Source: Chloroflexota bacterium
Lineage (GTDB): Bacteria > Chloroflexota > Dehalococcoidia > Lucifugimonadales > Lucifugimonadaceae
Assembly: GCA_018650845.1 (NCBI GenBank)
Contig: JABIFF010000012.1
Span: 1-64,000, forward strand
Direction: 5' to 3'
DNA length: 64,000 nucleotides
Shown here: in pieces, positions 5,759 through 57,771 of the stretch
How positions within the stretch are numbered: the stretch's first letter is position 1
Layout: the number at the start of each line of letters is the position of its first letter
Translations under genes and position numbers: made by a program
Notes under the pieces: generated by a model
Databases searched by the model: none
Told to the model about the DNA's origin: nothing
Seen by the model: the letters and a program-made list of their open reading frames with translations, nothing else

Positions 5759-6823
5759 CTAGGCATCGAATACTTCGACACTGCTTGATTTGAATACTAA
5801 AAATACGTCGCTACCGGGGTATATACCAAGCTCATTAAGTGCGTTTTCGGTTAGCTCTACGATGAATTTTTCGCCAGCGTCGACTTCAGCGAATACTTTG
5901 CCTTGCTTTGCCCAGACTTCAGAAACGCGCCCACCGAATATATTTCGAGCTGAGATATTCGTCGGTTGATCGGCTGCCAAAATTATTTGGTTTGCACCAA
6001 GTGAAACGACAACATTCTCGCCAGGGTTCTTATTTAAGTGACGAGTTGAGATTTCAACATCGCCTACTTTTACTGTGGTGAGATGATCGGTCGAGTCACC
6101 AATCACTCCGTCGAGAATATTTTCGAAGCTGTCGATGTCACCACCGGCGGCCGCAGCCCCAAGTAGCAGCGCCGAAGGTCGGTCGAAGCCTTCAACTTTT
6201 CCGTCTCGAAGAAGCATTGCCTTCGACGCTATCGACACCACTTCGGAAATTGAGTGCGATACGTAGATCATCGGCATTTCGAATTCGACGTGAACTCTTT
6301 TAAGGTAGTTCAATATCGAACCGCGCCGTGCGGCATCGAGTGAAGCTAACGGTTCGTCGAGTAGCAGCAATTGCGGTGAAGTAGCCAGAGCACGTGCAAT
6401 CGCCACTCGCTGGCGTTCGCCACCTGACAGCCCATCCGGCTTACGATCTAGTAAATGGCTGAGTCCAAGGAAATCGGCGATCTCTAGTGGAGCCAATCGC
6501 TGTTCGTCAGCATCAAGCAACTTCCAGCCAAATTCGATATTTCCTCGCACATCTAGGTGCGGGAACAGCGCTCCGTCTTGATAGACCGTGCCTATTCGAC
6601 GTTTTTCGGGCGAGACCCAAATGTTCTCTTCACTAGAGAATAGCGATCTGCCACCAAGCCCGATTTGCCCACTGTCTGGACGAACTACACCTGCGATGCA
6701 GTTGAGCAGGCTTGATTTACCCGCGCCCGACGGCCCAAACACTGCTGTAATCCCATCGTCGAATTTACCGGCGACATCGAGAGAAAATTCGTTTCGATCG
6801 AGCTTCACATCAAAGGAGATCAT
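5759..6823 (-). CDS. modC: Molybdate ABC transporter ATP-binding protein
   Basis: The ATPase of the molybdate importer, 354 residues. Walker A is GPSGAGKSS at about residue 31-39, the Q-loop is in TVYQDGALFPHL, the ABC signature is LSGGERQRVAIARA, Walker B is LLLLDEPLASLD, and the switch histidine is in YVSHS. From about residue 230 there is a C-terminal Mop/TOBE-type domain with the NIFGGRVSEV motif, typical of ModC. Its start overlaps the end of modB by four bases (ATGA), so the two are translationally coupled. Confidence 0.93.
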   Translation of the reverse strand: MISFDVKLDRNEFSLDVAGKFDDGITAVFGPSGAGKSSLLNCIAGVVRPDSGQIGLGGRSLFSSEENIWVSPEKRRIGTVYQDGALFPHLDVRGNIEFGWKLLDADEQRLAPLEIADFLGLSHLLDRKPDGLSGGERQRVAIARALATSPQLLLLDEPLASLDAARRGSILNYLKRVHVEFEMPMIYVSHSISEVVSIASKAMLLRDGKVEGFDRPSALLLGAAAAGGDIDSFENILDGVIGDSTDHLTTVKVGDVEISTRHLNKNPGENVVVSLGANQIILAADQPTNISARNIFGGRVSEVWAKQGKVFAEVDAGEKFIVELTENALNELGIYPGSDVFLVFKSSSVEVFDA

Positions 6824-49894: not shown

Positions 49895-50668
49895 CTAGCC
49901 TCGAATTTCGGCTAACGCCGATGTGTAGCCGTCCATCAAAACACTCACCTCGGTTGAGTAGTTCACTAAAAGAACTCCGGCATCACGCCACTGGCGCGCT
50001 TGCTCGGCTGAACTAACTAACATGGCGCATGTTTTACCGTACTTGTTGGCAGCCTCAACGATCTGCATTCGCTTTTCGTCGAGCACTCGATTCATATCCG
50101 GAGTGCCAAACACACCAAGATCTTGAGCGAGATCTTGCGGGCCAAGCGTTAGGGCATCGATTCCGTCCATCGAAGCAATTTCGTCAATGTGCTCAAAGGA
50201 CTGAGCCGATTCGAACATCACGGTTATAAAAACTTGATCGTTCGCGAATTTTAAGCGATCCATCACAGGCATCGACAAATCGAAATCGTTGCCTGGGGTA
50301 GCTCCGGCCATTCCACGTGAGCCACGGGGCGTATAGCGAGAAGCAGCGACGATTTCTGCTGCATGCTCGGGTGTGTCGACCTGCGGGCAGTGGATGTTGT
50401 AAATGCCCACATCGAGCAATCGTGTGATCCACTCTCGGTTAGCTTCTGGCGGACGAACCATCACCGGCATGTCGAGCGCCCTGCCCATCGCTGCAAAATT
50501 CGCAACGGTTTCGATAGATGGCGAAGAGTGTTCCATATCCAAACGAATGAAGTCGAGTCCTGCCTCTTTGAACATCGTCAACGATGCTGGATTACGGGTC
50601 ATATTGACCCAAGTCCCGATCTGCAGTTCGCCTCGTTCAACACCAGCTCTTAGTGGGTTCGCTTTCAA
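49895..50668 (-). CDS. HpcH/HpaI-family aldolase
   Basis: A 257-residue class II pyruvate-type aldolase. It shows IGTWVNMTRNPASLTMFKEAGLDFIRLDMEHS near the N-terminus, PVMVRPPEAN, and the metal/pyruvate site VMFESAQSFEHIDEIASMDGIDALTLGPQDLAQDLG (a Glu and an Asp ligand). The family cleaves 4-hydroxy-2-oxo acids to pyruvate and an aldehyde. Exact substrate unknown; no aromatic meta-cleavage genes surround it. Confidence 0.9.
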   Translation of the reverse strand: MKANPLRAGVERGELQIGTWVNMTRNPASLTMFKEAGLDFIRLDMEHSSPSIETVANFAAMGRALDMPVMVRPPEANREWITRLLDVGIYNIHCPQVDTPEHAAEIVAASRYTPRGSRGMAGATPGNDFDLSMPVMDRLKFANDQVFITVMFESAQSFEHIDEIASMDGIDALTLGPQDLAQDLGVFGTPDMNRVLDEKRMQIVEAANKYGKTCAMLVSSAEQARQWRDAGVLLVNYSTEVSVLMDGYTSALAEIRG

Positions 50669-50772: not shown

Positions 50773-51672
50773 TCACGATAGGAAACTCGAAATACTGTCT
50801 CGCAAACCTTCAGCATCGAGCCCGTGAGCCTCAACATGATCTTCAAGCACGCCGTACTTGCGCAGTTCCATATTTCGCAAGCCAAGTGACAAAAGTCGAT
50901 GAGCACGATCGTGTAGCGCACCCGAAACTTCCGAAGCCGATGTTCCGAGTAAGTACGGCTCGACCAATACGACTTCTGACGTACCAGTATCACGAAGCGT
51001 CCAGCTGTCGAACGGCATCACAGTTGTGGCGTACAGAACGGTTACATCAAGAGCCTCTGTTGCTTCGAGCACCCGATCGAGCATCGGTCCGACAGCGATC
51101 ACCGCTGGCGCACCCGATGTTCCCTGGCGTTCGACATGGAACTTCCCGGCTTCGATTGGGCGAGCTTCCGAGTTCGAATCTTCAGTTAATCGTACGTAGA
51201 CCCTGCCATCGCCAGAAGCAGCTTCGTCGAGCAACACGGCAGCCTCGTCGGCGTGACCCGGCACATGAATATCGAAATCGGGCAGAAGCTTTAGCAATCC
51301 CACATCACCGGGGGACTGGTGAGTGCGACCACTGATTGGCGCATCGAACGAGCCACCGACACTTACGAAAATTCCGCCTAATCCAAGATGAGCAAAGTCG
51401 ATCTTGATCTGCTCATACGGCCGTTCGAGTAGAAACGGTGTGTAGCTGTGAACCAAAGGCCTGAAGCCCTCTTTTGCAAGTCCAGAAGCCACACCGACCA
51501 TCAGCTGTTCACGAATTCCACAGTTGATAAATCGTCCCGGAAACTTGTCGAGTAGCCCGGCATCTCGGAATTGTGAAACGCCGATATCGGCAAGAACCAC
51601 AACTGAATCAGGATCAGTTTCGAGCATCTTCTCGGTCGATTCGATGAACGCATCTCGCATTGTTGCTGGCAT
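50773..51672 (-). CDS. Transketolase, C-terminal subunit (split enzyme)
   Basis: The pyrimidine-binding and C-terminal domains of a two-gene transketolase, 299 residues. Residues ~1-160 are the Pyr domain with the TPP-activating Glu in FINCGIREQLMVGVASGLAKEGFRP and the following GLGGIFVSVGGSFDAPISGRTHQSPGD. The C-terminal domain (~175-299) includes APAVIAVGPMLDRVLEA and VVLVEPYLLGTS. Its start and the stop of the N-terminal subunit share a base, so the two are produced together. Pairs like this are common in thermophiles, Actinobacteria and Chloroflexota. Confidence 0.9.
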   Translation of the reverse strand: MPATMRDAFIESTEKMLETDPDSVVVLADIGVSQFRDAGLLDKFPGRFINCGIREQLMVGVASGLAKEGFRPLVHSYTPFLLERPYEQIKIDFAHLGLGGIFVSVGGSFDAPISGRTHQSPGDVGLLKLLPDFDIHVPGHADEAAVLLDEAASGDGRVYVRLTEDSNSEARPIEAGKFHVERQGTSGAPAVIAVGPMLDRVLEATEALDVTVLYATTVMPFDSWTLRDTGTSEVVLVEPYLLGTSASEVSGALHDRAHRLLSLGLRNMELRKYGVLEDHVEAHGLDAEGLRDSISSFLS

Positions 51673-52367
51673 TACTTTGGCTCCACTTTGGCGACTACTA
51701 CATGTGGCATGCCCGGATGACTCTGCGTTAATGCCGTTTTGATGTCTTCGTGATCACGTCCATCAACAACAGCTGATGACCAACCCTCATTTTCGAATCG
51801 GGTTTGAATTCCGTCTGGCCAACCGAGCGACGCTGAGCCGTTATCGATAACGATTACCGTTAGATTTTCCAATCCCATACGACCTGCCATGGCGATAGCT
51901 TCGTGATTACTGCCTTCGTCTAGCTCGGCATCTCCAAGCAAGCAAAACACACGTGGGTCATTCTGGTTCCGCAGCCTGAGCCCCATAAGCATTCCAACAC
52001 CGATACCCAGGCCGTGACCTAGTGAACCAGTACCGATCTCAACGGCTGGAATCAACTCGCCGTCCGGGTGATAGCCAAGACGAGAATCGAATTTGCCCCA
52101 GTTCTTTAGCTCTTCAACGTCCAACAAACCCTTCGCAGCCAATACTGCGTAGTACGCCATTGGCCCATGACCCTTAGACAGAAGGAATCGGTCTCGATCT
52201 GGAGCCTGAGGATTTTCGGAGTCGATTTTCAGCACAGAATCGTAGAGAGTCCAAATCACATCGAGAGTCGACGTGGCACTGAACGAATGCTTTTCGTCGC
52301 CCGTCATCAAACTCATCAGCTTTCCGATGTCTTGGTAGGTGTATTCAGTTGCGGGGCTTTGAGTCAT
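51672..52367 (-). CDS. Transketolase, N-terminal (TPP-binding) subunit
   Basis: The pyrophosphate-binding half, 231 residues. Signature segments are DRFLLSKGHGPMAYYAVLA (His contacts), EIGTGSLGHGLGIGVGMLMG, and the TPP/metal motif LLGDAELDEGSNHEAIAMAG ending in LTVIVIDN. The usual GDGE is GDAE here. Together with the partner gene it interconverts sugar phosphates in the non-oxidative pentose phosphate pathway, or acts as a related ketolase. A SoxR-type promoter lies 47-77 bp upstream, facing this gene. Confidence 0.9.
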   Translation of the reverse strand: MTQSPATEYTYQDIGKLMSLMTGDEKHSFSATSTLDVIWTLYDSVLKIDSENPQAPDRDRFLLSKGHGPMAYYAVLAAKGLLDVEELKNWGKFDSRLGYHPDGELIPAVEIGTGSLGHGLGIGVGMLMGLRLRNQNDPRVFCLLGDAELDEGSNHEAIAMAGRMGLENLTVIVIDNGSASLGWPDGIQTRFENEGWSSAVVDGRDHEDIKTALTQSHPGMPHVVVAKVEPK

Positions 52368-52413
52368 TCTCTACACAATCCTTTTGGGTTTGATTCTCTG
52401 TTCACTAGCAAGT

Positions 52414-52444
52414 AGCCTACAACTTCAAGTTAACTTGAAGTCAA
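52414..52444 (-). promoter_or_regulatory. SoxR-type promoter and operator facing the split transketolase
   Basis: On the minus strand: -35 TTGACT (52444-52439), a 19-base spacer, and -10 TAGGCT (52419-52414). The 20-bp perfect palindrome ACTTCAAGTTAACTTGAAGT (52422-52441) fills the spacer. The core TCAAGTTAACTTGA is the same as in the E. coli soxS operator, and a 19-base spacer is the mark of MerR/SoxR-activated promoters. The soxR gene begins just beyond on the plus strand. Confidence 0.85.
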
Positions 52445-52458
52445 GAGGGATTTTGTTC

Positions 52459-52923
52459 ATGGTAGACATCTCGGTGCTTCTTACCATCGGTGAAGTATCA
52501 GACCGTACAGGTGTGGCGACTTCCGCGCTGAGATTCTATGAGACTAGCGGACTGATCGAGTCGCGGCGAACATCTGGGAATCAGCGACGGTATCAGCGGT
52601 CGACGATTCGCACTATCGCGGTGATCAAGGCCGCACAGCGAGCAGGAATTCCGCTGGACGAAATACGCGAGCGCTTGGCTCGGCTGCCGGCAGGACGAGC
52701 ACCCAACCGAGAAGACTGGGAGGAGTTGTCGAAGGCTTGGTCTTCAAGTCTCGATACTCGCATTGCACAACTCATCAGGGTCAAAGAAGATTTGGCAGAT
52801 TGCATCGGGTGCGGCTGCCTATCCATCGACAATTGCTCACTGATCAATCCCGGCGATGAGCTTTCGAGCACTCTGGCAGGAACGAGCAAGCTGGAACTAG
52901 TCACCGATTCCGGTTCCAAATAG
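52459..52923 (+). CDS. soxR: Redox-sensing transcriptional activator SoxR
   Basis: A MerR-family regulator of 154 residues, the same length as E. coli SoxR. The wHTH is LTIGEVSDRTGVATSALRFYE, followed by the GLIESRRTSGNQRRY wing. The dimerisation helix leads to the [2Fe-2S] cysteines 115, 118, 120 and 126 in DCIGCGCLSIDNC, the diagnostic C-x2-C-x-C-x5-C. The open frame starts 25 codons earlier, within the operator, so ATG 52459 with GGGA upstream is the start. It is divergent from the transketolase genes and should control them and itself. No soxS is nearby, as usual outside enterics. Confidence 0.95.
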   Translation: MVDISVLLTIGEVSDRTGVATSALRFYETSGLIESRRTSGNQRRYQRSTIRTIAVIKAAQRAGIPLDEIRERLARLPAGRAPNREDWEELSKAWSSSLDTRIAQLIRVKEDLADCIGCGCLSIDNCSLINPGDELSSTLAGTSKLELVTDSGSK

Positions 52924-52972: not shown

Positions 52973-54022
52973 ATGCCACTGCCTGTCACCCCAGATACCG
53001 ACAATACGACTACAAGATCGACTTCTCGTCGATCTGTGCTGCTGCTTGTGTTGATGATCCTGATCATCGTCGTAGTGCCGATGTCACTCGGACGCAGTCG
53101 CATACCCGTGCCGTTCGATCAGTCAGTGGCTGATTCGTTCGCCAGTTCAAACGCCGATGTGGTTTTTATCGGAAACTCACTTCTGGATAACCGAATTAAT
53201 CCCGATTATTTGAGTGAACTAATCGCCCGCGACGCGACGTCTCTCGCCATCGAAGGTACTGCTCCCGGTATTTGGTTCCTGCAGCTATCGAACGTAGTGG
53301 CAGCAGCTGAGAACGCGCCTAAGCAGATATTCGTCTTCTTTCATGACGATTTACTCACCAGGCCGATTTATTTCACAGGGGTCGAAGATCAACGACTAAG
53401 AGAGTCGTTGTCACATTCAAACATCAGTGGCTACGGGCTGCTGCCAGAACCAAAGGCATCGTTCGTCGATAGAGCGAGCGACGTATTCGAATCGCTGTAC
53501 CCAATCGCCAGCTCTGGTTCATATCGTGACAGTGGTCCCATTTCTTCCATAGGTGCAGGAATCGTTGGGATGAACAATGACGAAGCAACCGAATCGGCTA
53601 TAAACATATTCGGATTCGGCTTCAAGCGCGATCAAACGACAACCGTCCAGCAGCCTAAATATCACGGTAGCTTTCAATCAATGATTGGCAATTCGTTTTT
53701 GCCGTATATGCTCGAAATCGCCACTACGCTCGACACCGAAATAATCTTCGTGCGAGTAGCCGCCAGACCCAATGACGATGGCAGTCCGAACGAGCCTGAA
53801 ACACTCGCGAACTACTCCACCGATATCGACACGTATCTCACTTCGAAAAACGTCGGCTACGTCGATATGACGGGCCACATCGATGAAGGTGCTATCGATG
53901 CCGCCATGTACAACGACGGCTATCACCTGAAGAGTCGATTCCGAGACCACTACACCGAATTTTTCGCCGAATGGATGTTGTCGAATACCGGAACGCTTAG
54001 CGATTCAGGTGGGCAGCAGTGA
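52973..54022 (+). CDS. Membrane-anchored SGNH-hydrolase-like protein (partner of MBOAT)
   Basis: A 349-residue protein. A polar head is followed by one transmembrane helix (about 21-39). An extracytoplasmic domain follows with a block-I-like motif VVFIGNSLLDNRI (Ser69). A C-terminal NDGYHLKSRFRDHY resembles the Asp-x-x-His block of SGNH/GDSL acyl-hydrolases. Its stop overlaps the start of the MBOAT gene (GTGA). The arrangement is like DltD-DltB, AlgX/AlgJ-AlgI or PatB-PatA, in which an SGNH protein receives acyl groups moved across the membrane. The acceptor glycan is unknown. Confidence 0.75.
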   Translation: MPLPVTPDTDNTTTRSTSRRSVLLLVLMILIIVVVPMSLGRSRIPVPFDQSVADSFASSNADVVFIGNSLLDNRINPDYLSELIARDATSLAIEGTAPGIWFLQLSNVVAAAENAPKQIFVFFHDDLLTRPIYFTGVEDQRLRESLSHSNISGYGLLPEPKASFVDRASDVFESLYPIASSGSYRDSGPISSIGAGIVGMNNDEATESAINIFGFGFKRDQTTTVQQPKYHGSFQSMIGNSFLPYMLEIATTLDTEIIFVRVAARPNDDGSPNEPETLANYSTDIDTYLTSKNVGYVDMTGHIDEGAIDAAMYNDGYHLKSRFRDHYTEFFAEWMLSNTGTLSDSGGQQ

Positions 54023-55398
54023 CCTTTCAATCGCTCGAATATGCCGTGCTCCTAGCATTGGTCTTTGCCGTCTATTGGTTCATGTCGCGCCGTTACCAAA
54101 ACTACCTGCTTCTCGGTGCTAGCTACGTCTTCTACTCGTACGCCGATGTCCGAATGGCTTTATTGCTTGGCGGGTACACGTTGGTGACCTATTTTTCGGC
54201 AAGACGAATCGAAGAAGATTCGGTGAACGCTCGGCGATATTTAGCAGTTGTTCTGATTGCTTCCTTGGGCGCTCTGGCGTTCTTCAAGTACGCAGGGTTC
54301 TTTGTCGAGAGCATTGCCGATGCATTGAATCTCGTCGGGCTGGCAAGTTTCGATTCAACATTAAAGATCATCCTTCCTGTCGGGATTTCCTTCTACACAT
54401 TTCAGTCGATTGGTTACGTAATCGATGTGTACAAAAAACGAACTCATGCCATGCAAAATTTCGTCGATACCGCCCTATTCATCAGCTTCTTCCCTCAACT
54501 GGTGGCGGGTCCGATCGAGCGAGCATCGAAACTCTTTCCGCAATTAGAAACACGTCGTGCGTTCAATGTGGATCGAACTGCAAGCGGAATTACGCTACTA
54601 GCTTGGGGACTATTCAAAAAGCTAGTCATCGCCGACAACGTGGGCATGATTGTCGGCAACGTTTTCTCAGCCAGCCAGCCCGGAGGCACGATGCTGTGGG
54701 TCGGCGTTTTCGCATTCGGAATTCAAATCCTTGCCGATTTCTCTGGATACACAGATATCGCCCGCGGATCGGCTCGATTGCTAGGCATCGATCTATCTGT
54801 GAACTTCAAGCACCCGTGGCTAGCGTCCTCACCTGCAGATTTCTGGCGACGCTGGCACATCACTCTTTCCGAGTGGCTTCGTGATTACGTTTACATTCCA
54901 CTTGGTGGCGACCGTAATGGCAAACGAAGAACTGCCATCAACGTCGTGATCACGTTTGCGCTCGGCGGGTTGTGGCACGGTGCGGCGTGGAATTTTGTTC
55001 TGTGGGGACTTTTTCATGCCGGATTTATTTTGGCTTGGCGAGTGCTGAAAGCAGCCGGGACGCCATCGAATCGAGCGGTTTCCACGCTTGCGACGTTCCT
55101 CGTCATTGGCGCAAGTTGGCTGCCGTTTCGAGAGAGCGATCTCACGTATATGGCCGACAACATTTTTGGTGCTCCACAAGAAGCACGACTGTCGGTGGCA
55201 CTGGCGATTACCGCCCTGCTCTACTCGCTGCCGTTATGGCTTCACGCGATCGTAGATCGACCAGCGATTTCCAGCCTCTGGACGCGAAACGACGTGAGCA
55301 GGACGGCTGTATTCACCATTCTCACACTCACGTCGTTTGTAGCTATATTGGCTCTTAGAGCCGATACGACAGCAGAGTTTATCTACTTCCGTTTTTAG
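54019..55398 (+). CDS. MBOAT family O-acyltransferase (AlgI-like)
   Basis: A 459-residue polytopic membrane protein that moves acyl groups to extracellular acceptors. AlgI-type motifs are FFPQLVAGPIERASKLFPQL, SPADFWRRWHITLSEWLRDYVYIPLGG with His280, and the invariant histidine in FALGGLWHGAAWNFVLWG (His320). Start GTG 54019 overlaps the stop of the SGNH gene. No alginate or teichoic-acid genes are nearby, so the substrate is open. O-acetylation of a surface polysaccharide is the usual role. Confidence 0.92.
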   Translation: MTFQSLEYAVLLALVFAVYWFMSRRYQNYLLLGASYVFYSYADVRMALLLGGYTLVTYFSARRIEEDSVNARRYLAVVLIASLGALAFFKYAGFFVESIADALNLVGLASFDSTLKIILPVGISFYTFQSIGYVIDVYKKRTHAMQNFVDTALFISFFPQLVAGPIERASKLFPQLETRRAFNVDRTASGITLLAWGLFKKLVIADNVGMIVGNVFSASQPGGTMLWVGVFAFGIQILADFSGYTDIARGSARLLGIDLSVNFKHPWLASSPADFWRRWHITLSEWLRDYVYIPLGGDRNGKRRTAINVVITFALGGLWHGAAWNFVLWGLFHAGFILAWRVLKAAGTPSNRAVSTLATFLVIGASWLPFRESDLTYMADNIFGAPQEARLSVALAITALLYSLPLWLHAIVDRPAISSLWTRNDVSRTAVFTILTLTSFVAILALRADTTAEFIYFRF

Positions 55399-55426: not shown

Positions 55427-56092
55427 CTATTCCACAGGCATCAACCATTCGGCAACTTTTTCGCAGTTGGTTGAAGGGTCGAGCAAGTTACCTTCGTCAC
55501 CCTCGCACATGAACACCACGTTTCCGACCACGGTGTAGTCGTTGTACGTAGGGAATCGAGTCGTGCATGTAGCAGGCAGTACATCATCCGAACCCTCGGA
55601 TTCAGGTTCTAGATACGATGCTGAGAACGACTTCGATGGAAAGCCTGTGTTTGCCTTTACGGCGGAAGAACCGACAGGACGTCGGCACTGAATTCTGTCC
55701 GTAAAGTCGCCATCACGAGCCTGATTATCACCTTCGCGTCGGAAGGTCTGATCTTCTGCTGCTGCAACTCCAAGCGTCTTAGCCTCTTCGGCAGAAGCGT
55801 AAATCAGAACACCAACTTCAGTCTGATTCATGTAGCCCCACTTGAATGTTGTAGCTCCGGGGTAGTCAAGGACGAAATCCTTTTGTCCCTTCCAACCGAT
55901 CGCCTTCACATCGGCCTCAGTGAAAATCTGAGTCGATTCAACCATTCGAATTCGCTGAGGTGTTGCATCGTCTCCACCAGATGCAACCAACGATTCGTCT
56001 TCAGCAGATCCACACGCAACCGCCACCGCTGCGATCAGCAATGCCGAAATCAGCAACAACTGAACTCTAGAAATAAGTAGAAATCGATTCAT
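55427..56092 (-). CDS. Lipoprotein of an uncharacterised four-member family, copy 1
   Basis: A ~221-residue lipoprotein: basic head, hydrophobic segment, lipobox VAVAC followed by GSAEDES. The mature domain runs from IRMVESTQIFTEADVKAIGW to the end. It includes FKWGYMNQTEVGVLIYASAEEAKTLG, a single central cysteine (IQCRRPVG), a late one (ATCTTRF), and the hallmark YNDYTVVGNVVFMCEGDEGN then a Cys-containing helix NCEKVAEWL. ATG 56092 (AAGG nine bases before) is preferred to the earlier ORF start. The copies at 56271 and 57094 are close paralogues. Function unknown. Confidence 0.78.
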   Translation of the reverse strand: MNRFLLISRVQLLLISALLIAAVAVACGSAEDESLVASGGDDATPQRIRMVESTQIFTEADVKAIGWKGQKDFVLDYPGATTFKWGYMNQTEVGVLIYASAEEAKTLGVAAAEDQTFRREGDNQARDGDFTDRIQCRRPVGSSAVKANTGFPSKSFSASYLEPESEGSDDVLPATCTTRFPTYNDYTVVGNVVFMCEGDEGNLLDPSTNCEKVAEWLMPVE

Positions 56093-56203
56093 CAAAAATA
56101 GCCTTAAGTGCAACCGTGCGAATTAGGGGTTTAGAACGACGAACCATATGGTACTTGGAAACCTATCCAATAGCTGATGCATTTGTAAAAGGTGCTTAAA
56201 CGA

Positions 56204-56231
56204 AATCAGGCCACCGAATAGTGACCTGATT
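56204..56231 (-). terminator. Hairpin after lipoprotein copy 2 (probable terminator)
   Basis: Minus strand AATCAGGTCAC pairs with GTGGCCTGATT around a six-base loop. A short T-rich tail follows. Almost the same sequence follows copy 3 (57035-57063), so the unit of duplication included the terminator. Confidence 0.7.
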
Positions 56232-56270
56232 CCTAAAATATTTCGTAGTACAAGAGAGTCGCTTAGCCGA

Positions 56271-56927
56271 CTAGGAAGGGTTCAACCACTCAGCAACTTT
56301 CTCACAGTTGGTCGAAGGTTCGAGCAATCGACTTTCATCACCCTCACACATGAACACCACGTTTCCAATCACCGTGTAGTCGTTATACGTCGGATATCGG
56401 GTCGTGCATCCTCTAACCTGCGAGGCATCATCTGGACGATCAGAATTAGGCTCTAGGTAAGAGGCATAGAACGACTTCGATTTGAATCCAGTGTCCGCCT
56501 TTGTAGCCCTGGAACCAACGGCAAAGCGGCAGGAAATCCTGTCAGTAAAGTCGCCATCACGAGCTTGATTGTCACTCTCGCGCCGGAAAGTCTGATCGGC
56601 TGCTGCTGTGACTCCAAGCGTTTTGGCGTCTTCGGCAGAATCGTAAATCAGAATGCCGACTTCGGTCTGATTTAGGTATCCCCATTTGAACGTCGTTGCT
56701 CCGGGGTAATCAAGCACGAAATCCTTCTGAGCCTTCCAGCCAATCGCCTTTACATCGTCTTCGGTGAATATCTGAGTCGACTCGATCATTCGAATTCGCT
56801 GAGTTTCTTCTCCACCCGACGCAACCAACGAGGTGTCGTCAGACCCACAGGCGATAGCTACGAGAGCGATCACAATCGCAAACACTGCAAATAGCTGCGC
56901 CTTAGAAACGTTCTTCGCTCGAACCAT
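56271..56927 (-). CDS. Lipoprotein of an uncharacterised four-member family, copy 2
   Basis: A ~218-residue paralogue of copy 1, and the closest to it (same TQRIRMIESTQIFTEDDVKAIGW and LDYPGATTFKWGY blocks). Lipobox VAIAC. Four cysteines of the mature domain are conserved among the three tandem copies, probably forming disulfides outside the cell. The hallmark YNDYTVIGNVVFMCEGDESR is present. Start ATG 56927 behind AGAGGTG, good spacing. It is followed by its own hairpin, so the three copies may be separate transcripts. Confidence 0.78.
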   Translation of the reverse strand: MVRAKNVSKAQLFAVFAIVIALVAIACGSDDTSLVASGGEETQRIRMIESTQIFTEDDVKAIGWKAQKDFVLDYPGATTFKWGYLNQTEVGILIYDSAEDAKTLGVTAAADQTFRRESDNQARDGDFTDRISCRFAVGSRATKADTGFKSKSFYASYLEPNSDRPDDASQVRGCTTRYPTYNDYTVIGNVVFMCEGDESRLLEPSTNCEKVAEWLNPS

Positions 56928-57034
56928 AAATAACACCTCTAAATGTGTAGCGAACGCTAGCTAGCTACAACGTGAAAAATTTCTTGCGGTGAAGAGTATC
57001 GAACGTTCACATGTCTGGGTCACTTCTTAAAACA

Positions 57035-57063
57035 AATCAGGCCACCAAAATGGTGACCTGATT
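57035..57063 (-). terminator. Hairpin after lipoprotein copy 3 (probable terminator)
   Basis: Minus strand AATCAGGTCACC pairs with GGTGGCCTGATT (one G-T) over a five-base loop, followed by TGTTTT. It is the near-copy of the hairpin at 56204. Confidence 0.8.
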
Positions 57064-57093
57064 CTTCATAACTATTCACACCGCAAAGAACGG

Positions 57094-57771
57094 CTATTCA
57101 GCAGGAATGAGCCATTCCTCGATATTCTCACAGTTGGTGGAAGGTTCGGTCAGGTTGCGGTCGTCACTCTCGCACATGATCACGATGTTTCCGATAACGG
57201 TGTAATCGTTGTACGTTGGGAACCGGTTCGAACATGCCTGCCCAACACCCTGGATGTCGTCAGATTCGCCAAGTTCAGGATCAAGGTACGAAGCCGAGAA
57301 TGACTTCGAGGTGAAACCTGTATTGGCCTTCACAGCCGATGCGCCAGCAGCGTCTCGGCATGAAATTCGGTCAATGAGGTTACCGTCTGGAGCTTGACCG
57401 TCTCCCTCGCGCCTGAAGGTCTGACCTTCGGCTGCGGTAACTCCGAGAGACTTTGCATCTTCTGCGCTGGCGTAGATAAGAACTCCGACTTCTTTCTGGT
57501 TCATGTAGCCCCACTTCGCAAGCGATGTGCCCGGGTACTCCAGAATGAAATCGCGCTGCCCCTTCCAGCCAACTGCTTTCATATCGGCTTCAGCAAATAC
57601 TGTGGTCGATTCGATTGTCCGAATGCGTTTCGGCCAGTCGTCAGTACCACCCATTGCTACACCGTCGCCACCACCATCAGAGCCACAGGCTACTGCGACC
57701 ATAGCGATCAGCAGTGCTGAAATCACAAGCAGTTGTGCTCGCGATACTTTTGTCATTCCATTCATCAACAT
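57094..57771 (-). CDS. Lipoprotein of an uncharacterised four-member family, copy 3
   Basis: A 225-residue paralogue, more divergent than copies 1 and 2. Lipobox VAVAC then GSDGGGDG. Shared blocks are IRTIESTTVFAEADMKAVGW, KWGYMNQKEVGVLIYASAEDAKSLG, ISCRDAAG, and YNDYTVIGNIVIMCESDDRN. The first ATG has AAAGG at short distance; a second at 57765 is possible. Role unknown. The single conserved domain and repeated acidic N-terminal linker suggest a binding protein at the cell surface. Confidence 0.78.
   Translation of the reverse strand: MLMNGMTKVSRAQLLVISALLIAMVAVACGSDGGGDGVAMGGTDDWPKRIRTIESTTVFAEADMKAVGWKGQRDFILEYPGTSLAKWGYMNQKEVGVLIYASAEDAKSLGVTAAEGQTFRREGDGQAPDGNLIDRISCRDAAGASAVKANTGFTSKSFSASYLDPELGESDDIQGVGQACSNRFPTYNDYTVIGNIVIMCESDDRNLTEPSTNCENIEEWLIPAE

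Follow-up and report, generated by a model that had tools for sequence, protein, structure and literature searches.

A soxR gene divergent from genes for a split transketolase-like enzyme forms a predicted regulatory cassette in Chloroflexota and Actinomycetota

The 64,000-nucleotide stretch of Chloroflexota DNA analysed here (the window) carries a soxR gene divergent from tktN and tktC, which encode the two halves of a thiamine diphosphate (ThDP) enzyme of the transketolase type (Table 1). Considered as a whole, the data are quite likely best explained by a SoxR-tktNC regulatory cassette whose enzyme works outside the pentose phosphate pathway. Within this reading, control of tktN/tktC by SoxR is, from the sequence features and the conservation described below, very probable.

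Table 1. Features of the soxR-tktNC locus, in window coordinates.
Feature	Position	Strand	Description
HpcH/HpaI-type aldolase	49895..50668	-	follows tktC after 104 nt; perhaps a third cistron
tktC	50773..51672	-	299 aa; Pyr and C-terminal half; G106 and S114 at the positions of EcTK H461 and D469; GRTHQ motif
tktN	51672..52367	-	231 aa; thiamine-diphosphate (PP) half of a split transketolase-like enzyme; without the C-terminal loop seen in the characterised split chain
MerR/SoxR-type promoter of tktN (predicted)	52414..52444	-	-35 TTGACT 52444-52439, 19-nt spacer, -10 TAGGCT 52419-52414
Putative SoxR operator	52422..52441		perfect 20-bp palindrome ACTTCAAGTTAACTTGAAGT; sequence scan; position kept in relatives
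soxR	52459..52923	+	154 aa; redox-sensing MerR-family activator (predicted), from NCBIfam TIGR01950, the 2zhg alignment and cysteines C115, C118, C120 and C126

The soxR product scores 201 bits against the NCBIfam SoxR model TIGR01950, above the curated cut-off of 116.9, and its nearest solved chain is Escherichia coli SoxR (2zhg, E 2e-42), with which the cluster site CIGCGCLSxxxC could be aligned. The four cysteines of the CX2CXCX5C motif, expected to hold the [2Fe-2S] cluster, are unchanged in 20 relatives. The best start is the ATG at 52459, the TTG at 52384 being a mere opening of the frame. By these features the gene is a true SoxR, for which redox-dependent activation is predicted. The preliminary description had already recognised a SoxR with all four cluster cysteines, lying divergent from tktN/tktC, and both statements are borne out, the genes being on opposite strands on either side of a 91-bp gap.

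This gap holds the sequence ACTTCAAGTTAACTTGAAGT, which is identical to its own reverse complement and is the one perfect 20-bp palindrome of the window (0.06 expected). The perfect dyad sits inside a 19-nt spacer, as found for SoxR-activated promoters, whose class has 19–20 nt; a plain sigma-70 scan makes no promoter call here because it allows spacers of 16–18 nt only. The palindrome and the two hexamers 19 bases apart, facing the transketolase genes, are therefore as first described. The statement that the palindrome lies exactly between the hexamers holds for its inner 17 bases, the last three bases of the 20-mer overlapping the -35 hexamer. Such an overlap with the operator edge is normal for SoxR/MerR promoters. 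When sites were scored for TTGAC plus the palindrome (maximum 21), the window site reached 21, a value attained by 0 of 200 dinucleotide shuffles. A genome-wide search for the palindrome, which the preliminary description had suggested, found the 14-bp operator core TCAAGTTAACTTGA a single time in the 2.48-Mb genome. The window expectation, the single genomic core and the shuffle controls rule out a chance palindrome. The idea of a large SoxR regulon in this genome was likewise abandoned, as the exact core occurs once; two additional matches to a looser pattern resemble chance because reversed-pattern controls yield as many. From the uniqueness of the core, the high-affinity SoxR regulon of the organism may thus be this single site.

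SoxR is patchily distributed in the family, in 14 of 76 genomes. Genomes with a close tktN homologue were identified by protein search, and soxR and tktN lie side by side and diverge in the window's genome (G000) and in seven others from three genera of the family (G013, G077, G079, G080, G084, G086 and G088). A phylum-wide draw of 400 Chloroflexota genomes contained SoxR in 20 and, excluding the window's genome, tktN adjoins it in 13 of 19. The operator occurs upstream of tktN in all 22 Chloroflexota genomes that have both SoxR and tktN (scores 17–21, with 0 of 200 dinucleotide shuffles equalling the observed scores) and in none of the six SoxR-negative ones (scores 10–14), a difference with a Fisher p of 2.7e-6 that is nominal, the genomes being related and the counts phylogenetically non-independent. 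The genes that recur across genera are soxR, tktN and tktC only. A wider operon including the aldolase was discarded, since this gene is kept in G013 only among the loci compared. Recurrence in the family, in the phylum and in Actinomycetota also rules out that the arrangement is a lone oddity of one metagenome-assembled genome (MAG).

Several loci show variations on this layout. G021, which lacks SoxR, retains an apparent decayed box. The soxR gene of G077 (L072, about 6099–6518) contains two in-frame stops next to an intact operator and intact tktNC, a snapshot of regulator loss. In G017, a transposase-like and an integrase-like gene lie next to the relocated soxR (L038, 931–2903), and tktNC with its operator is found on a different contig; the separation may be the work of mobile elements. 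Elsewhere in the window, positions 52973–55398, directly downstream of soxR, encode a membrane-anchored protein and an MBOAT O-acyltransferase that look like a polysaccharide O-acetylation pair and are conserved in G013 only, and positions 55427–57771 hold three tandem paralogous lipoprotein-like genes (about 221–228 aa, RIRxxES motif), of which G013 has two copies.

Three genus mates present another partner for the regulator: in G010 (C56, L037), G015 (C76, L040) and G004 (C15, L039), soxR is divergent from a gene for an MFS transporter, with a perfect SoxR core in the gap of G010 and G015. A search of G000, G013 and G017 did not find this MFS gene, and no split tktN was found in G010 or G015. 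In the SoxR tree the MFS-linked proteins are nested inside the tkt-linked group, which contradicts SoxR-MFS as the ancestral arrangement of the genus; the pump link therefore looks derived. Read most simply, the regulator would have been retained and re-paired with the MFS gene within the genus.

Beyond the phylum, about 85,000 species genomes were scanned with the tktN alignment, which yielded 585 relatives; the best 80 of these 585 were examined and comprise Chloroflexota and many Streptomyces, Kitasatospora, Streptantibioticus, Saccharopolyspora, Amycolatopsis and Actinopolymorpha. Of the genes in these 80 loci, tktN and tktC alone are present in nearly all, and soxR is the recurrent divergent neighbour, adjacent in 22. 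With a pattern built once the sites of Chloroflexota and a single one from Streptomyces were known, so that the figures describe conservation and are no blind test, the TTGAC-operator architecture was found upstream of tktN in 77 of these best 80, mostly Streptomyces; 0 of 200 mononucleotide shuffles matched each of the 77 sites, and in 77/77 the operator was the single top-scoring site of its locus on either strand. Many Streptomyces sites read TTGACCTCAAGTTTGGTTGAGGT, in which one inner dyad base is altered (CTTG to GTTG), and their affinity for SoxR is therefore uncertain. SoxR is encoded in 37 of 40 genomes tested among the best 80; the three without it are L125 and L131, the two Chloroflexota that have no box, and L177, a Streptomyces. 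Two of the 40 are misfits: the Streptomyces G525 has a box and no detected SoxR, and the Actinopolymorpha (L197) has a SoxR and no box that we could find. In a maximum-likelihood tree, a branch with 100/99 support separates the tkt-linked Actinomycetota SoxRs, together with almost all of those from Chloroflexota, from the sampled general SoxRs of Actinomycetota (Streptomyces), so that the tktNC cassette has its own SoxR lineage. At loci lacking a dedicated soxR copy, the general SoxR likely acts in trans.

As to the enzyme, tktN and tktC are two frames with a one-base overlap, and their products score above the cut-offs of Transketolase_N (TktN, 111 bits) and Transket_pyr (TktC, 87 bits). For both chains the nearest solved relative by sequence is the split transketolase of Carboxydothermus hydrogenoformans. 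Of the predicted structures (pLDDT 84 and 88), the TktN model matches transketolase N-halves, including the 6yak N chain, and the TktC model finds its best fold match in 1-deoxy-xylulose-5-phosphate synthase (DXS) and also matches the C chain of the split transketolase. The dxs model gives 73 bits, far under its cut-off of 466, and DXS identity was not supported. By alignment, the ThDP and catalytic positions are kept in TktN (H27, H67, H100, D146, E151, N176) and in TktC (E55, H118, R6, R161), R6 and R161 resembling R358 and R520 of E. coli transketolase (EcTK). Using EcTK numbering and the place of H261 as we take them to be, the transketolase fold and ThDP/catalytic residues are thus present and the residues of the sugar-phosphate pocket (H261, H461, D469) are not: the position of H461 is an invariant glycine, that of D469 is serine or another residue among relatives, and the TktN chain ends before the loop expected to carry H261. 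In E. coli transketolase, a change of D469 admits aromatic, non-phosphorylated aldehydes (PMC5073344).

TktN and TktC would assemble into a ThDP enzyme of the transketolase/DXS fold, which we infer to be an alpha2beta2 assembly by analogy with that of C. hydrogenoformans. Catalytic residues that are kept together with an altered donor/acceptor pocket would most likely point to a non-canonical substrate, and a role other than on canonical pentose phosphates is, on sequence grounds, on balance likely. One option is a carboligase for less polar aldehydes; another is that the ThDP-bound carbanion would feed electrons to a redox partner, as relatives in Rhodococcus suggest. Indeed, a plasmid search returned proteins of the fas operon of R. 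fascians pFiD188 as relatives of tktN/tktC. FasB and FasC belong to the same subfamily as TktNC, with 58% identity over the TktN part and 51% for TktC; FasB (L238, 4806–6665) carries an N-terminal ferredoxin, and the fas operon includes a P450 and cytokinin genes, whereas tktN in the window has no such fusion. No soxR is annotated in 10.7 kb of the fas region, and a search of the open-access literature returned no FasB paper. If Fas function is as we presume it to be, the comparison suggests, as a lead, that members of the FasB/TktN subfamily may serve as electron-supplying ThDP enzymes.

In its fuller form, this second option would have TktNC oxidise a ThDP-bound ketol or oxo-acid and pass the electrons to ferredoxin, flavodoxin or a quinone, for redox homeostasis or for the re-reduction of SoxR. 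The order of the R. fascians operon, a P450 followed by the ferredoxin-TktN fusion and then FasC, speaks for such a function, but within about 4 kb of the best 80 of 585 tktN loci no ferredoxin motif was found and a P450 motif occurs at one locus only, and we regard it as possible, on the unlikely side. Somewhat more doubtful is that TktNC is an ordinary transketolase through which SoxR boosts the non-oxidative pentose pathway for sugar phosphates and NADPH, possibly replacing transketolase activity lost to superoxide. Benov and Fridovich reportedly traced such a loss, in 1999, to oxidation of the ThDP intermediate by superoxide; the fold, the ThDP residues and the two EcTK-like arginines are all kept, and G000 has a transaldolase and, like G013, no other transketolase that could be found. 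Against it stand the changes of H461 to Gly and of D469 to Ser, the absence of the loop expected to bear H261, the co-occurrence of a canonical full-length transketolase with TktNC in G079, G086 and G443, and the fact that no other gene of the pentose phosphate pathway travels with the soxR-tktNC pair. Moreover, no transketolase was found in the genus mates G001, G010 and G015, nor glucose-6-phosphate dehydrogenase (G6PDH) in G000 and G013, in all of which MAG gaps may hide genes. On these grounds we do not accept the function in the non-oxidative pentose pathway that the preliminary description had assigned to the locus, and the link that it drew to NADPH supply finds no support either, no G6PDH having been found in G000 and G013.

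For the regulatory part, we propose a mechanism from the known action of SoxR and MerR proteins, what is observed here being the components, the distances between them and the fact that they are conserved together. The tktN promoter has an over-long spacer of 19 nt, within which SoxR with its [2Fe-2S] cluster would occupy the 20-bp operator; redox-cycling compounds would oxidise the cluster, SoxR would distort the DNA and bring the -35 and -10 hexamers into alignment, and tktN-tktC would be transcribed. That SoxR regulates itself only, with tktN as a bystander of the divergent layout, is very improbable: SoxR boxes are often found in divergent gaps and soxR autoregulation has been suggested for some Streptomyces (PMC4146615), but the hexamers point toward tktN, the box is missing from the Chloroflexota without SoxR (0/6), and we reject this reading because the box remains in front of tktN even where soxR has relocated, as in G004 and G017, where soxR is on another contig, and in most Streptomyces. 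Conservation of the operator and of the soxR-tkt pair in relatives, proposed beforehand as a check, was found, with the same pair, operator and spacing, in Actinomycetota as well as in several families of Chloroflexota, and strongly supports the direct control of the split transketolase that had been claimed from the window.

The idea of a link between SoxR and transketolase is not wholly new. A table footnote in a study of Streptomyces (PMC4146615) notes a conserved SoxR site for SAV_1623, a putative transketolase of S. avermitilis; in the open-access literature this footnote is the only such link that we found, subscription papers lying outside the search. SAV_1623 is a one-line prediction there, neither generalised nor among the six tested targets, which are a pump, oxidoreductases and a monooxygenase. 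As in the Streptomyces regulon (S. coelicolor ecaA-D, SCO2478, SCO0320ext; PMC4146615), SoxR would act here as an activator without SoxS, through a soxbox in the target promoter; unlike in that regulon, a soxR gene lies next to the target, its product falls into another SoxR group, and the unit to which it belongs spans two phyla. SoxR also drives a nearby target in the regulation of the MFS pump gene mfsA of Stenotrophomonas (PMC4411124), whereas here the predicted target is a ThDP enzyme of metabolism. The split-gene transketolase of C. hydrogenoformans (6yak, 6yaj; PMC7661550) consists, like TktNC, of two chains with the same domain split, and differs in that the C terminus of TktN is about 40 residues shorter, the EcTK H461 and D469 positions are replaced and SoxR control is predicted. 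From DXS, TktNC is distinguished by its two chains and by His100, which is kept in TktN and is Phe in DXS (PMC7661550).

Taken together, we tentatively propose, at somewhat less than an even chance, that the cassette which Chloroflexota and Actinomycetota have in common specifies a hitherto unrecognised, non-pentose ThDP enzyme of the response to redox cycling, which would condense reactive aldehydes or pass electrons from a ketol or oxo-acid to a partner and which travels with its own SoxR lineage. Outside the enterics, the SoxR regulons that have been tested are made up of pumps and redox tailoring enzymes. If our reading is true, the response to redox-active antibiotics would gain a metabolic branch, in the form of a conserved transketolase-type target that many Streptomyces and uncultured Chloroflexota carry together with a dedicated lineage of SoxR. 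The pair, which also occurs in cultivable Streptomyces and Kitasatospora, would bear on the old question of the connection between ThDP/transketolase chemistry and stress from superoxide and redox cycling.
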